Shown piece by piece: positions 3,482 to 9,267 of a stretch of 64,000 bases of DNA (the first letter of the stretch is position 1; each line of letters opens with the position of its first letter). The notes beneath the pieces are model-generated. The model did no database searches. It had not been told where the DNA came from and worked only from the letters and a program-made list of their open reading frames with translations. A program made the translations under genes and the position numbers. This DNA comes from Anaerobacillus arseniciselenatis. GTDB taxonomy: Bacteria > Bacillota > Bacilli > Bacillales > Anaerobacillaceae. The stretch lies in the NCBI RefSeq assembly GCF_001865995.1, contig NZ_MLQQ01000001.1, positions 744,001-808,000 on the forward strand, read 5' to 3'.

Positions 3482-3631
3482 TTACTTAGTTTCGCGGTGC
3501 AAAGTCATCTTTTTTAATCTTGGGCTATATTTTTTTAACTCAAGACGGTCTGGGTTATTACGTTTATTTTTAGTAGTGATGTAATTACGATCACCAGTTT
3601 CTGTACAAGCTAATGTAATATTTACGCGCAT
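3482..3631 (-). CDS. rpmG: ribosomal protein L33, Cys-poor (zinc-independent) form
   Basis: A 49-aa protein of the large ribosomal subunit. It begins [13 protein letters not shown] and ends TLHRETK, typical of L33. The zinc-binding form has two CxxC pairs; here only one Cys (CTETG) remains and the second pair is replaced (KKYSPR), so this is the C-minus form. GGAGGG lies 8 nt before ATG. It has its own sigma-A promoter (3675-3703). In B. subtilis such paralogues can replace the zinc form under zinc shortage; whether a C-plus paralogue exists elsewhere in this genome cannot be seen. Confidence 0.92.
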
Positions 3632-3719: not shown

Positions 3720-4370
3720 CTAGTTTGAACAACTTTGTACTGTTTTCTCGATATCATTACTATAAATCCAATTTTGTAAATTAAGTTGTAACAATAAATT
3801 ATCATTAATAATTTCATTTTCATTACGACCGGTACATAACCAAAAATATGCGTTCACTTCATCAGTGGCTTCGATTGTTCCTTCTAAACTAAAAACAGGA
3901 ATCGACGTCCCGTAAGAAAATGGGTGTATTTTCAATTGTCCGTCATTTAAAGAATCATTAACATTGTAATCCGTACAATACTGAATAATTCCACGTTTAT
4001 TTAAAAGACCATTTAGTAATAAATATTGACCTTTGTAAGAACGAACAATCGCTTCGGCAGATGGAGCAAAAAATGTCACAGCATCATTCATTTCATACGT
4101 AATCTGTTGAGAAATAAATAACTTAATAGTCCTTTTTTTCTTCGATAAATTAACTAAAGTGATATTTTGAAGGATCGTACGAACATCAACATTACTTTCA
4201 AATATAATCGATAGTTTATCAGTATTATTTTTAAATATTTGTCTATGTTTTTCTTCGTTTTTATCGATGCATATCCAATTTTCTGAATCTACCCAAGAGA
4301 AATGACCGTCTATCCAAACACCGTATTTAACTGTATTGATTGCTTGATTTAAACAACATTTTTGCTTCAT
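3720..4370 (-). CDS. stand-alone GH15-type N-terminal beta-sandwich domain protein
   Basis: 216 aa. The order of motifs (YGVWIDGHFSWVDSENW, then the NLSKKKRTIKLFISQ strand, SYKGQYLLLNG, GIIQYCTDY, and a strand near VNAYFWLCTG) matches the N-terminal super-sandwich domain of bacterial GH15 glucoamylase/glucodextranase-like proteins. The catalytic (alpha/alpha)6 barrel that should follow is absent: the frame stops after the sandwich, and no barrel remnant is found downstream. It is therefore a domain-only protein, not an obvious hydrolase. GGTGG lies 6 nt before ATG. It is the last gene of the polysaccharide operon, 27 bp after the nucleotidyltransferase. A carbohydrate-binding or scaffolding role is inference. 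Confidence 0.7.
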   Translation of the reverse strand: MKQKCCLNQAINTVKYGVWIDGHFSWVDSENWICIDKNEEKHRQIFKNNTDKLSIIFESNVDVRTILQNITLVNLSKKKRTIKLFISQQITYEMNDAVTFFAPSAEAIVRSYKGQYLLLNGLLNKRGIIQYCTDYNVNDSLNDGQLKIHPFSYGTSIPVFSLEGTIEATDEVNAYFWLCTGRNENEIINDNLLLQLNLQNWIYSNDIEKTVQSCSN

Positions 4371-4397
4371 CTTTTTCCACCTACCGTTTCATATACT

Positions 4398-5582
4398 TTA
4401 AAAATTATGAATTCTCTTTTCAGGATTGATCGGTTTTTGACTCGATTTGCTTTTCTCTACTATTAAAGATGTGCGAACAATCGCCGCCTCACTAATCTCT
4501 TTATTTGGCCATAATTTTACTTCTGGTTGAACCAATGCATTTGCCGATATCTTACAATATTCTCCTATTACTGAATCTTCACTAAGTGAAACTGAGCTCT
4601 CTAGTTGAACCCCTTTACAGATTGTTGTACCTTTCAACTCACTATAAGGTCCAATATATATATCATTCCACAAAATTGAATCTTCCAAAGTGCTATTTAT
4701 TGCTATCGTTGAATTATTGCCGATAATCGAGTGAGAGCTTATGAGTGTTCCTTTTCTTACGACTACTCCATTCCCAATTGAAAGAGGCCCTTGTAAAGTT
4801 ACTCCTTCTTCAATGACAGCATTCTCTCCCAGCCAAATGCCCTCTCTTACTTCCTTACCAGAAAGTTTGACATTTACCTTTTTACTTAATAAATCAAACT
4901 GCGCTTGACGATATGAATTTAGATTACCAACATCACACCAATACCCTTCGGCTTTATAACCATATATTTTGCCTTCCTTCTTTAGTAAATACGGGAATAG
5001 GTCTCTACTAAAATCTGTTGTGACCCCTTTTTGTATATACTTAAAAATATTAGGATCTAAAACGTAAATTCCAGTATTGACTGTATTACTAAAGAGCTCA
5101 TTAAACGATGGTTTTTCATGGAAACGAACGACCTCATTTTTTTCATTCGTCATAATAACCCCAAAATCACAGGGAGAGGTATAACGTTTCATAAATATGG
5201 TTACTAGTGCCCTTTTTTCATCGTGAAACATAATCCCTTTATTAAGGTCAAAATCTGTTAGTCCATCACCACTAATAACAATAAAGCGTTCATCTAAAAA
5301 ATGTTCGATATTTTTAATACTTCCAGCTGTTCCTAAAGGAGTCGATTCTTCAAAATAATATAGATGAACACCATACTTACTCCCATCTCCGAAATAATTT
5401 TTAATGACTTCTGACTTATATTGAAGTGTGACCGCAATTTCAGTAACCCCATTTTTTTTCAGTAATTCTATGCAGTACTCCATTACTGGTTTATGAACAA
5501 GTGGAACCATCGGTTTTGGAATTTTACATGTTAACGGTCTTAGACGTTTGCCCATGCCACCAGCCATAATGACACCTTTCAT
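4398..5582 (-). CDS. sugar-1-phosphate nucleotidyltransferase with left-handed beta-helix
   Basis: Cytoplasmic NDP-sugar pyrophosphorylase (NTP + sugar-1-P to NDP-sugar). The N-terminal catalytic domain carries MAGGMGKRLRPLT and PKPMVPL, the nucleotide-binding signature, plus ISGDGL and the EKPS loop. The C-terminal third (about 250-370) shows hexapeptide-type repeats (VIEEGV, SIGNGV, IIGNNS, VIGEYC) of a left-handed beta-helix. It resembles the first two domains of cyanobacterial-type GDP-mannose/glucose-1-P enzymes that carry a phosphomannomutase domain, which is missing here. The ATG at 5582 has GGAGG 10 nt upstream; a TTG at 5588 is also possible. It follows the GH57-GT4 gene with the ribosome site overlapping that gene's stop. 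Confidence 0.85.
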   Translation of the reverse strand: MKGVIMAGGMGKRLRPLTCKIPKPMVPLVHKPVMEYCIELLKKNGVTEIAVTLQYKSEVIKNYFGDGSKYGVHLYYFEESTPLGTAGSIKNIEHFLDERFIVISGDGLTDFDLNKGIMFHDEKRALVTIFMKRYTSPCDFGVIMTNEKNEVVRFHEKPSFNELFSNTVNTGIYVLDPNIFKYIQKGVTTDFSRDLFPYLLKKEGKIYGYKAEGYWCDVGNLNSYRQAQFDLLSKKVNVKLSGKEVREGIWLGENAVIEEGVTLQGPLSIGNGVVVRKGTLISSHSIIGNNSTIAINSTLEDSILWNDIYIGPYSELKGTTICKGVQLESSVSLSEDSVIGEYCKISANALVQPEVKLWPNKEISEAAIVRTSLIVEKSKSSQKPINPEKRIHNF

Positions 5583-5588
5583 CAGCAA

Positions 5589-8381
5589 TTAACCTCCAAT
5601 ACACTCTTTTTTACTTAAACATGTATCATCATAAACAGCTACCGTCTCTTTTGTTAATGAATCCCAGCTATATTTAGTCGTTGCTAACAATTTTCCATTT
5701 TTAGCAATTCTTTTTGAGAGATCTTCGTCTTCTATACAAGTAATGATTTGGGTAGCTAAGCTTTGCACATCGTTAGGATAAATTTTCAACCCCGTTACTT
5801 GATGGGTAACAATTTCTCCTAACCCCCCAGTGTCAGAAACGACCGTTGGCTTACTAGCAATCATCCCTTCTAGAGCAACAATACCAAACGGTTCATATAA
5901 GCTTGGGAATAAGCATATGTCACAGCCATTTAAGATTTGATTTCTTAATTCATCAGAAATAAAGCCGATAAAATGAACTGAATGCTCTAATTTTCTTTTT
6001 TTAATTTGGAGTTGATAACTTTCTAACATAGGACCTTTTCCAGCAATGATAAATTTAACATTAGGATACTTTGCTAATATTAAAGGTGTAGCGTCTATAA
6101 TTGTTTGGAAACCTTTTTCTTTAACAATTCTTCCAACTGAAAATACATATATATCCGTTTCTTTACCATATTTTTGTTTCCAGTTTACACCTTCCCCAGA
6201 AACCATCTCGATGTCGACCCCGTTAGGTATCATTTCAATTTTTTCCTCAGGAAGCTGAAACACTTTTTTTATTTCTGTTTTCATGTAATCACTACAAACA
6301 ATGACTTTATTTGCCACGTAACATAATTCCCATTCCTTATGACTAATATCTCGCTGCAGTTGTGTGTAAATACCTCCATTTCTACCATGCTCTGTCGCAT
6401 GAATCGTTGCAACCAATGGAATATTCAGTTCCTTTTTTATTGACTTAGCTGCGACACAGACGAGCCAATCATGAGCATGGATGATGTCAAAATTAATTAC
6501 ATCTGCCAACTTTACAACATAATCACTAAAAGCTACATTTAAACTGCCTACCCAATGGTAAAATTCATCAGCATACGGTTGTAGACTCTGGACGCGATGA
6601 ACATGGACTCCTTCTAGTACTTCGTAATTTCTACTTTCTTTTGCTGCTGTAGTAATCACATGTACTTCGTGTCCTTGATTGACAAGTGTCCTCGATAAGT
6701 CGTAGACATGTCGTGAAAGCCCGCCAACGATTAATGGTGGGTATTCCCAAGCCAACATTAAAATTGTTTTTTTATTTTCTTTTAATTGGGGATGCCTTTG
6801 AAATTTCGAACAAATTAGATCGTTTTTCGATATAAAAACTTCTAGTTGGATTTCTTCTAGAAACGGATATTCATTCTCAAATTCTGTTAACATTTCATCG
6901 CTTAATTGTTCTTTCAAAAGTAGTAACTTCAACTTCTCAAAGCGTGATAAATGTTCTTTAATACGATTTACTGCATATTTTGATGTAGTTTCTGCATCAA
7001 TCATAAACGACCAGTCACTACTAGAAGCCAACATCCATTCCCGAGCCATTTGCTTTAAACACCGATTTACTTCAATACTCTTATCTTTGTATTTAGTGAC
7101 ACAATGAATTATTTCCGTTTCTGTTTGGTGAAGGTCACGGTACAGCCAACTATTTTTCTCATTTAACCAAACTTCCCCGTAGCCGTTCCTCCCCCAAGTA
7201 TTAAATGAAACATTGACCGTTTTTAGGTCTTTATAATGATGTTCTATAAATTGTTCTGGTGTAACAAAACTAAACTTTTCACTTCCAGTTTCTATTACTT
7301 GCGTTAACCATTCTGGTCCTTCAAACCACCAGTGGCCAAATAACTCAGCATCGAAAGAAGTAACCACCATATAAGGTGGGAAACATTGATCTTTATGTTT
7401 TTCGAGCTCACTTTTAATCATCGCAATAAAATGTTCACTATGTTGCTTTACTTTTTTTAAAGCGTTTTTTCGGTTATAAAAATGCTTTTCCTCTGTTTTC
7501 CCTGTTACACGGTTGTATTTTAAACCTGTGTCTATGCGAAATCCTTTAGAATGCATAAACGGCTTTACATATTCCCACTCTCTTTCATAGGCAATGTCTC
7601 GATAAAATTCTCGATACTCTACATCTCCAGGGTAGCCATCTATCGAACTCCAAACTTTATTCGTCAGCTCACTATTACGTGGAAATAATATTAATCCATG
7701 TGGAGAATAGATAGGATTACGAGATCGCTCACCTAGTGAAGGGTCTGCTAATCTTAATGCATGTTCATCAACAAACGTATAGCGAACCCCTTCTTCAAAT
7801 AAAATTCGGTCTATTCCAGGAGAAAATGCGCACTCAGGTAACCAAAACCCCCTTGGTTTATAACCAAAATGCTTCTTAAATATTTGAATTCCATGAATAG
7901 CTTGTGCTCTTACTGCTTCCTTTGTCAGTAAGTACGGAAAAAAAGCGTGAGTTGCAGAGCTACAAATGCATTCAATCTTCCCTACTTCATTGAAGTGACG
8001 AAATCCTTTTAAAAGATTTTGATCCCATAATAAAAAGGTATGCTTTAGTTGTTTAAATCGTTTCGTATAAAAGTCTACTAATAACTTTTCTTCGTTAGCT
8101 TTAACGTGGTTGTTTTCTTTTTTAAGTAAGGACTCAACTTTTTCTAGGTAGAGCAAATACCTCCTTTGCATTAATGGATCAGCTAACATTTCTAACAATG
8201 GTGCCGAAAATGAGATAGTAAACATTTTTTCTTTTCTTTGTTTCTCTAAATTCCATAATAAAGGTATATAAGTTTCTGATATTGCTTCAAAAAGCCAACG
8301 CTCTTCTATTCTTTCAGCGTCTTTGTGTCTAACATAAGGCAAATGGGCATGTAATATTAATGAAAAATAACCGCTATTCAT
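5589..8381 (-). CDS. GH57 alpha-glucan branching enzyme fused to GT4 glycosyltransferase
   Basis: 930 aa with two enzymes in one chain. Residues 1 to about 520 are a GH57/DUF1957 branching-enzyme module: HAHLPYVRH at 11-19, the nucleophile Glu183 in FWLPECAF, and the acid Asp344 in SFDAELFGHWW. From about 540 a GT4/starch-synthase-like transferase begins (LAWEYPPLIVGGLSRHVYDL, then HAHDWL, then SVGRIVKEKG). It ends with the E-x7-E donor motif EPFGIVALE and KYSWDSL. In most genomes these are separate genes. There is no signal peptide, so it is cytoplasmic. ATG with GGGGG 9 nt upstream. It probably extends and branches an alpha-glucan using the neighbouring nucleotidyltransferase's product (inference). 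No frameshift separates the halves. Confidence 0.88.
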   Translation of the reverse strand: MNSGYFSLILHAHLPYVRHKDAERIEERWLFEAISETYIPLLWNLEKQRKEKMFTISFSAPLLEMLADPLMQRRYLLYLEKVESLLKKENNHVKANEEKLLVDFYTKRFKQLKHTFLLWDQNLLKGFRHFNEVGKIECICSSATHAFFPYLLTKEAVRAQAIHGIQIFKKHFGYKPRGFWLPECAFSPGIDRILFEEGVRYTFVDEHALRLADPSLGERSRNPIYSPHGLILFPRNSELTNKVWSSIDGYPGDVEYREFYRDIAYEREWEYVKPFMHSKGFRIDTGLKYNRVTGKTEEKHFYNRKNALKKVKQHSEHFIAMIKSELEKHKDQCFPPYMVVTSFDAELFGHWWFEGPEWLTQVIETGSEKFSFVTPEQFIEHHYKDLKTVNVSFNTWGRNGYGEVWLNEKNSWLYRDLHQTETEIIHCVTKYKDKSIEVNRCLKQMAREWMLASSSDWSFMIDAETTSKYAVNRIKEHLSRFEKLKLLLLKEQLSDEMLTEFENEYPFLEEIQLEVFISKNDLICSKFQRHPQLKENKKTILMLAWEYPPLIVGGLSRHVYDLSRTLVNQGHEVHVITTAAKESRNYEVLEGVHVHRVQSLQPYADEFYHWVGSLNVAFSDYVVKLADVINFDIIHAHDWLVCVAAKSIKKELNIPLVATIHATEHGRNGGIYTQLQRDISHKEWELCYVANKVIVCSDYMKTEIKKVFQLPEEKIEMIPNGVDIEMVSGEGVNWKQKYGKETDIYVFSVGRIVKEKGFQTIIDATPLILAKYPNVKFIIAGKGPMLESYQLQIKKRKLEHSVHFIGFISDELRNQILNGCDICLFPSLYEPFGIVALEGMIASKPTVVSDTGGLGEIVTHQVTGLKIYPNDVQSLATQIITCIEDEDLSKRIAKNGKLLATTKYSWDSLTKETVAVYDDTCLSKKECIGG

Positions 8382-8402
8382 GTAAATATGCCCCCTTCTA
8401 TT

Positions 8403-8894
8403 TTATTTTTCATAATAAGTGTAACTGCTATAACCTTCCAGCCATTGTGGTGCTTTTTGTTGTCCTTCAATCCATTTTGAATAAGAGTGGTTCTCAGACG
8501 CTACTTCTGCTTGCAATGACTTTGGAGTTGCAGCTGAATTAGATCTAACAATTGAAAAAAAAACTCCACTCTTCGTTTCAACACCAACATCTACACAGTA
8601 TGTTCGATGAGGAGTTACTTCCTTCAAGAAATATTCAAGACAATGTTCAAATAAGGGATAATCAACATAGCGATGAGCGTTATGTCCATTGAAATGTATC
8701 GCCGTAATGTCATATAGTCTTAAAACTTTCTGAAGGTTATTCCATTTTCCATTTAAATGCTGTTCTAATAAGATCTTTTTCCTATTAGAAATCTCCCAAT
8801 AGCAATAAAGTATATATGGTGATTGCGTCATTAACACGCATTTATCTACTTTTGTTTCTTTCAATGACTTCAACTTTTTTCGGCCTTTCTGCAC
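8403..8894 (-). CDS. DUF4912 protein, first gene of the polysaccharide operon
   Basis: 163 aa. After a basic N-terminus, residues about 18-36 read VLMTQSPYILYCYWEIS, the signature of DUF4912, and the aromatic pattern continues to the C-terminus (QWLEGYSSY). The biochemical function is unknown. Family members are often found beside GH57 enzymes, as here: it lies 21 bp upstream of the GH57-GT4 gene, probably co-transcribed. The start is uncertain. GTG at 8894 has no good ribosome site; TTG about 21 nt inside, after AGAAAGG, is an alternative. Confidence 0.7.
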   Translation of the reverse strand: MQKGRKKLKSLKETKVDKCVLMTQSPYILYCYWEISNRKKILLEQHLNGKWNNLQKVLRLYDITAIHFNGHNAHRYVDYPLFEHCLEYFLKEVTPHRTYCVDVGVETKSGVFFSIVRSNSAATPKSLQAEVASENHSYSKWIEGQQKAPQWLEGYSSYTYYEK

Positions 8895-9267
8895 ATTGTC
8901 GCCGTATTGACGATTAAGCTATAATAATATGCGGTGTAAATATTTTATATGAATCTTTTTTCAGTTTATAATAACATCTTACAATTGTTATAAAAAGCCA
9001 ACAAGAAGCCTATTTTGTTGAAAATTGTCTATCCTATACTACGTAACAACTAAACAGGCAAAATTTTTTAAAACTCGCTTAATTTTATCGTTATAAGAGA
9101 AAATAATACCTCAGATAGCGAAGAAACGACAAAAAGAACTTTTTTTATATATTTACTCCGACAACTTTTTCAGCCATCATCATGTAATTTGTTCCATATT
9201 TCAAAGTAAGGTTGTTATTTTATATAGTTATGATATAAAAGAATAGATTGTACGAGGAGGGAATGTA
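8895..9267. other. divergent intergenic region
   Basis: 373 bp, strongly AT-rich, between the polysaccharide operon (left) and a plus-strand gene (right). I see no gene. It holds the plus promoter at 9212-9239. A short dyad AACATCTTACAATTGTTATAA lies near 8971-8992; the minus promoter of the operon is probably in this area but not clear enough to call. None of the window's dispersed repeats occurs here. Confidence 0.5.
9212..9239 (+). promoter_or_regulatory. sigma-A-like promoter
   Basis: TTGTTA (9212-9217), 16-nt spacer, TATAAA (9234-9239), 28 nt before the ATG of the downstream gene, whose ribosome site is GAGGAGGG. Confidence 0.5.

Follow-up and report, generated by a model that had tools for sequence, protein, structure and literature searches.

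A compact four-gene locus in Anaerobacillus arseniciselenatis is probably an operon for the synthesis of a second, glycogen-type alpha-glucan. From the comparisons below, we take its GT4 glycosyltransferase to be the core activity and the GH57 module fused to it to be an optional editing module. The locus is real and conserved and, as far as the literature searched shows, not experimentally described; those searches returned no experimental account of a GH57-GT4 fusion. The locus lies in the window, the 64,000-nucleotide stretch of DNA analysed here (contig C1, 744001-808000), and comprises the following features.

3720-8894, minus strand: the four-gene locus (ORFs and family searches)
8976..9018, minus strand: conserved promoter element, a dyad ACAA-N10-TTGT plus an extended -10 TGTAAGAT, with the -10 at 8981-8976 (EM motif)
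8403..8894, minus strand: DUF4912 protein, 163 aa; the likely start, TTG 8873, gives 156 aa
5589..8381, minus strand: GH57-GT4 fusion protein, 930 aa
6834..8381, minus strand: GH57 branching-enzyme module with BE_C; Glu183 (7833-7835), Asp344 (7350-7352)
5607..6776, minus strand: GT4 glycosyltransferase module; G553, G554, R751, K756, E830, E838
4398..5588, minus strand: sugar-1-phosphate nucleotidyltransferase (396 aa) carrying a left-handed beta-helix; probably starts at ATG 5582
3720..4370, minus strand: gene 4 (216 aa), an orphan supersandwich domain from the N-terminus of a GH15 enzyme, without catalytic barrel

The preliminary description had claimed four co-directional, tightly spaced genes, one of them a 930-aa GH57-GT4 fusion with Glu183, Asp344 and the GT4 E-x7-E. 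The ORFs and domain matches bear this out, with intergenic gaps of 21, 0 and 27 nt. Downstream lie a 49-aa ORF, which we take to be ribosomal L33, and a gene for 5-formyltetrahydrofolate cyclo-ligase (MTHFS; TIGR02727, 183 bits). The fusion is 77% identical to that of an Anaerobacillus-type relative (L033).

Using the fusion to search 299 Bacillales genomes, and defining the locus by a close GT4 scoring >300 bits to the profile, we found it in 106, the source genome included. In all 106 the order is DUF4912, GT4 or fusion, nucleotidyltransferase, gene 4, MTHFS, on one strand (genes present counted). MTHFS falls in the stretch examined in 101 of the 106, and a PhoU-like protein, presumably PhoU itself, in 66 (18+32+16). 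It had been suggested that the same order be sought in relatives: DUF4912, fusion and nucleotidyltransferase follow one another identically in 17/17 named Bacillaceae loci with the fusion, and the genes are not scattered. We excluded the fusion of L046, whose frame is split between two ORFs, from the fusion set. The fusion is not restricted to Bacillaceae: among the best 120 of 7932 matches, fused relatives are also seen in Brevibacillus, Effusibacillus, Paenibacillus and Polycladomyces. Fused forms among these 120 often carry the database name "1,4-alpha-glucan branching protein domain-containing protein" or "DUF1957", so the architecture is known to automatic annotation. Unfused DUF4912, GH57, NTP-PMM and GT4 occur together in nine loci from uncultured Clostridia/Bacillota (L052, L058, L063, L066, L067, L071, L076, L080 and L081), with DUF4912-GH57 on one strand and NTP-PMM and GT4 on the other (GT4 match, E 1e-129 to 1e-137).

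Sequence comparison of the 106 loci upholds the earlier claim of intact GT4 residues: G553, G554, R751, K756, E830 and E838 (GGRKEE) are kept in every one. The Glu+Asp pair of GH57 is intact in 34; another 43 have a GH57 without the pair, and in 29 the module is gone, leaving nine proteins with an N-terminal DUF4912-like stretch and 20 with GT4 alone. Elongation and branching had been proposed to be physically linked. In this genome both are indeed fused and intact; as a principle the link is not general, because the GH57 pair or module has been lost in 72/106 loci, in all of which the GT4 residues are kept. B. subtilis YqgM may be the GT4-only form; a DUF4912 match is present in the control B. 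subtilis genome. Nine proteins of 561-589 aa, at first counted among 52 decayed fusions, show no match to GH57 and resemble fusions of DUF4912 with GT4. A DUF4912 profile supports this reading for two of the nine at E<1e-3, and Pfam for 0 of five scanned; the other seven assignments come from our reading of shared sequence. On a quick GT4 tree with long-branch warnings, rooted with 10 unfused relatives and labelled with the first classes (52 decayed), GH57 changes between intact and not intact at least seven times among the 106; the starred branches alone force three changes, counted with the outgroup.

The dead GH57 remnants are under purifying selection in the pairs tested. Their dN/dS ranges from 0.12 to 0.34, compared with 0.04-0.13 for the attached GT4 halves (13 pairs, one of them on 20 codons; a fourteenth gave no value). 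Judging from these values, the remnant seems still to serve some purpose other than catalysis, though it is less tightly constrained than GT4. We suggest that it survives as a non-catalytic, probably glucan-binding, domain.

Both GT4 domains, PF13439 and PF00534, are present in the window's fusion, together with E830-x7-E838 and the G, R and K residues. The best NCBIfam model for this half is glgA_Coryne (TIGR02149), which scores 160.3 bits where the cut-off is 302.4. As a family, GT4 enzymes act with a wide range of donors and acceptors. For the nucleotidyltransferase, the nearest solved structure is 8x7s, labelled UTP-glucose-1-phosphate uridylyltransferase (214 bits), followed by mannose-1-phosphate guanylyltransferases (150 bits); NCBIfam man1P_GTase_Rv gives 254 bits (cut-off 440). 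Given the closeness to the guanylyltransferases, GDP-sugars are possible donors. Identity with GlgC is not supported (TIGR02091, 137.4 bits; cut-off 424.9). The nucleotidyltransferase gene is present in 79/106 loci (27+35+8+9), and in 24/106 its product exceeds 600 aa; in the one such protein scanned, the C-terminus is PGM/PMM-like. The window's protein is without the PMM-like domain of such relatives. We considered an active phosphomutase on the long forms and rejected it: by pattern, an SHNP-type loop is absent from 34/34 proteins >600 aa (24 from Bacillales, 10 from Clostridia/Bacillota), so the PMM-like domain is probably inactive.

The GH57 half has a BE_C domain (PF09210, 92.2 bits) and finds its nearest solved relative in Thermotoga maritima AmyC (PDB 2b5d; 389 bits over 511 residues). 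Like AmyC, it combines the catalytic pair with a cysteine by the nucleophile and a short catalytic loop. This cysteine, Cys184, is kept in 33 of the 34 members with an intact pair; a Cys in this position is named as a branching signature in the part of PMC6616209 seen. We looked in alignments for the long, flexible Tyr loop of "true" high-activity branching enzymes; the corresponding stretch, 205-225, is short, without Tyr and AmyC-like. These features place the GH57 half in the short-loop AmyC type. Enzymes of this type, as excerpts of PMC6616209 and PMC10346327 describe them, cut alpha-1,4 chains, form alpha-1,6 bonds weakly and are strongly hydrolytic. AmyC itself has been shown to form alpha-1,6 branches, with hydrolytic activity of up to 30% (PMC6616209, in part), and in a comparison of three GH57 enzymes its alpha-1,4-elongation was the highest (PMC10346327, in part). 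AmyC is a stand-alone protein, whereas the window's GH57 has GT4 attached; glycosyltransferase terms do not occur in PMC6037648, from the AmyC literature. This is the one GH57 above cut-off in the source genome, whose assembly (G000) is 80% complete.

Gene 4 contains the GH15 N-terminal sandwich; its 216-aa product has no Pfam match and no PF00723 barrel, and PF00723 finds no match anywhere in this genome. Eight genomes hold a full-length GH15 gene inside the locus, one of them assigned to Fictibacillus, and the one full-length GH15 scanned is nearest to oligosaccharide amylase. Gene 4 derives from the full-length, glucoamylase-type enzyme that those eight genomes still hold. The orphan domain is under purifying selection in the pairs tested (dN/dS 0.06-0.33 in seven pairs, with 0.33 for window versus L132).

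DUF4912 (PF16258) matches gene 1 with 100.5 bits against a gathering score of 29.4, and this is the one DUF4912 gene of the genome. A separate DUF4912 gene accompanies 34/34 intact, 43/43 decayed and 15/20 GT4-only loci, with dN/dS of 0.06-0.56 in eight pairs. The domain is apparently the usual partner of GT4, a small fn3-like fold that is probably glucan-binding or scaffolding. The locus thereby ties the unexplained DUF4912 to GT4, and not to GH57 alone. In 49 of 92 separate DUF4912 proteins there is an N-terminal extension of >55 aa. Where present among the 33 aligned (30 of the 33 proteins in the alignment), it is HTH-like, and its Pfam matches are sub-threshold in the two scanned. The window's protein is without this stretch.

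Upstream of the locus lies a conserved 46-bp element. From 106 upstream regions, 67 remained as EM input after a redundancy filter, and 44 of these carry the element at >25 bits (log-likelihood 921 versus 164-176 in three shuffles; 25 rounds for the real set, 20 for the shuffles). Regions of the intact, decayed and GT4-only classes are all represented; the 23 regions at or below 25 bits include both DUF4912-GT4 regions tested. A looser expression finds 53/106 upstream regions, compared with 0.3 in shuffles, and within the genome the pattern is matched exactly by the window copy alone. The element reads as a sigma-A-like promoter, in which the right half of the dyad ACAA-N10-TTGT would be the -35. 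A sporulation sigma-E promoter was also considered. The window has a candidate 58 nt upstream (score 10.9, reached by 3/100 shuffles), but it is not conserved: a best site reached by fewer than 10/100 shuffles occurs in only 5/33 upstream regions (window, L039, L043, L121 and L124), at differing places. Autoregulation by the HTH-like stretch of DUF4912 is not claimed, because the window protein and that of L033 are without the stretch and retain the promoter element.

The classical glycogen genes are present as well. The preliminary description had noted that the classical glgBCDAP cluster is not seen in the window. The idea that the locus stands in for a missing glg operon is not supported for this genome, where glgB-C-D-A-P (GH13 GlgB, GlgC, GlgD, GT5 GlgA and GlgP) is complete in a row at L113, making the four-gene locus a second system. 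Family searches place GlgB, GlgA and GlgP above cut-off on that stretch of contig C2, with GlgC found in the genome and a second GlgP on C21; none of GH13 GlgB, GT5 GlgA or GlgP is among the four genes. Counting GlgC at E<=1e-100 (3/229 positives are below the curated cut-off), we found glgC in 95/106 locus-bearing genomes. No match came from 11 of the 34 genomes with intact GH57; each of the other 72 genomes gave one. Put the other way, GH57 is intact in 11/11 genomes without glgC and in 23/95 with it (Fisher p 1e-6, not phylogenetically independent). The 11 genomes represent about three lineages; tested by independent pairs with the revised labels (2-3 pairs), the association gains no support. 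We regard the association as a lead.

The search for GlgA, GlgB and GlgP covered 16 genomes. At the thresholds used, nine locus-bearing genomes of one family (f46, at least one a Fictibacillus) yielded no GlgA, GlgB, GlgC or GlgP; all nine have an intact fusion and the nucleotidyltransferase, and eight have the full-length GH15. These genomes may have another alpha-glucan route, for example one with GlgE, TreS or GlgX. GlgC and the locus are both missing from a further f46 genome, G218. The remaining two of the 11 glgC-less genomes, G050 and G091, have GlgP. In G008 and G120, GlgA, GlgC and GlgP were found and GH13 GlgB was not, so the GH57 of the fusion may be their branching enzyme. The simplest reading of this gene content is that, in some genomes, synthesis and branching may both come from the fusion unaided, and that others may depend on it for branching only.

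How might the locus work? In the pathway that we favour, the nucleotidyltransferase would convert glucose-1-phosphate to NDP-glucose, with which the GT4 half would extend alpha-1,4-linked chains; the GH57 half would either trim these chains or cut and rejoin them. DUF4912, and GH57 where dead, would hold the glucan. Breakdown would be the task of the full-length GH15 in eight relatives and of the two GlgP phosphorylases in this genome. The donor, the acceptor, the linkage and the polymer itself are inferred from the gene set. More tentatively, and with rather less confidence than in the pathway itself, we suggest that in Fictibacillus-type genomes the operon is a glycogen pathway without GlgA, GlgB, GlgC and GlgP, its GT4 synthase tied to a brancher and its breakdown left to GH15. 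Elsewhere, beside the classical pathway, the brancher would have been free to lose its catalysis time and again and to serve instead as a glucan-binding arm of the synthase. Genomes in which GlgA, GlgB, GlgC and GlgP were not found, and which have an intact fusion and a glucoamylase-type gene, would offer a direct test of the GT4 role. The loci at this single chromosomal site also form a natural series: a chain with two enzymes, a fusion with a pseudo-enzyme, and GT4 on its own. Comparing these would reveal what a branching domain contributes to a polymerase once its catalysis is gone.

It is also conceivable, though we think it unlikely, that GT4 makes some other dedicated glucoside (for example a short acylated or methylated glucan, a primer or a glycolipid), as in the mycobacterial MGLP pathway, and that GH57 sets a single alpha-1,6 bond or trims. 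The mycobacterial proteins Rv3031 and Rv3032, encoded in one cluster, belong to GH57 and GT4, respectively. In the account of PMC4555173 (in part) they act in one pathway, Rv3031 as a hydrolase resembling branching enzymes and Rv3032 as an alpha-1,4-glycosyltransferase, and weak branching by short-loop GH57 (PMC10346327, in part) would suit such a product. So would the dispensability of GH57 (72/106) and the coexistence of the locus with a full glg operon here and with glgC in 95/106 genomes. However, no methyltransferase or acyltransferase is among the four genes, the eight operons with full-length GH15 (nearest, in the one scanned, to oligosaccharide amylase) count against this reading, and a fusion of GH57-BE_C to a true GT5 GlgA in L059 points to alpha-glucan. 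A module for degradation or remodelling, in which GH57 would be an amylase or a 4-alpha-glucanotransferase and GH15 a glucoamylase, leaving GT4 a minor or salvage role, is less probable still. It would account for the hydrolytic nature of GH15 and for the hydrolysis and high alpha-1,4-elongation of AmyC noted above (PMC6616209 and PMC10346327, both in part), but the parts that get lost are the hydrolytic ones: the GH57 pair is missing from 72/106, and full GH15 survives in 8. The GT4 residues, by contrast, persist in 106/106, and a nucleotidyltransferase gene is present in 79/106. That the locus is a relic without coherent function, its fusion and orphan domain decaying leftovers, is very improbable: GH57, the GH15 barrel, the PMM-like domain and the HTH-like stretch have been lost repeatedly across relatives, but dN/dS is below 1 for the orphan domain, DUF4912 and the GH57 remnants, and the promoter element is kept in 44/67 upstream regions.

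An alpha-glucan operon of the kind we prefer has several partial counterparts among known systems. Its predicted chemistry (NDP-glucose synthesis, alpha-1,4 elongation, alpha-1,6 branching) is like that of the classical GlgB(GH13)-GlgC-GlgD-GlgA(GT5)-GlgP operon. It differs in using GT4 rather than GT5 and GH57 rather than GH13, both on one chain, along with a non-GlgC nucleotidyltransferase, DUF4912 and, in eight relatives, GH15 in place of GlgP. The GT4 GlgM/actinobacterial GlgA family, closest to the GT4 half by NCBIfam model, is not fused to GH57, and the window's GT4 scores below the family cut-off. In the MGLP pathway the two enzymes are separate proteins accompanied by a methyltransferase gene, whereas here GH57 and GT4 are fused; the part of PMC4555173 seen mentions neither DUF4912 nor GH15. 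The planctomycete MAG L059, like the window, has a brancher and a glucan synthase on one chain, and we take its GH57-GlgA fusion as separate because the synthase is GT5. In archaea, GT4 lies beside GH57 genes in Picrophilus torridus and Methanoculleus bourgensis, and the Methanoculleus GT4 is a proposed, unproven glycogen synthase; the 2024 review that reports these clusters (PMC11046441) considers that the role of GT4 in archaeal glycogen metabolism needs clarification and, in the part seen, does not describe the clusters as fused or mention DUF4912, both of which set the Bacillales locus apart.

Flanking features in the window are:

Window 8976-9018, minus strand: conserved promoter element upstream of the DUF4912 gene, whose -35 is overlapped by a dyad of 18 bp
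Window 3482-3631, minus strand: 49-aa ORF between gene 4 (the orphan GH15 sandwich gene) and the cyclo-ligase gene

The promoter element is retained also at loci whose DUF4912 protein has lost the N-terminal HTH-like stretch. The 49-aa ORF presumably encodes ribosomal protein L33.

In some relatives (loci L149-L155), GT4 and DUF4912 are gone and orphan GH15 sandwich genes still lie in the same neighbourhood. Features seen at two other loci are:

L044 11601-12254 (Rossellomorea aquimaris): tandem repeat DNA immediately 3′ of the nucleotidyltransferase gene
L046 6001-8779 (Halalkalibacter akibai): fusion gene broken into two overlapping frames

Read on the minus strand, the repeat gives a short peptide, repeated. 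The split of the H. akibai gene is perhaps a sequencing error.

Glycogen genes also occur outside the locus. GlgA, GlgC and GlgP are found in the genomes of L120 and L163 (G008 and G120), in which GH13 GlgB was not found at E<=1e-100.

L114 8288-10729 (G000:C21, the genome of the window): second glycogen phosphorylase gene, separate from the glg operon

Further GH57 genes are seen in other contexts:

L052 3201-4892 (likewise L058, L063 and similar): second GH57 gene, diverged, about 560-590 aa
L059 219-3314: planctomycete chain joining GH57-BE_C and GT5 GlgA

In the Clostridia/Bacillota loci (L052, L058, L063 and similar), the second GH57 gene is transcribed away from DUF4912-GH57. The planctomycete chain is a further example of a branching enzyme-synthase fusion.
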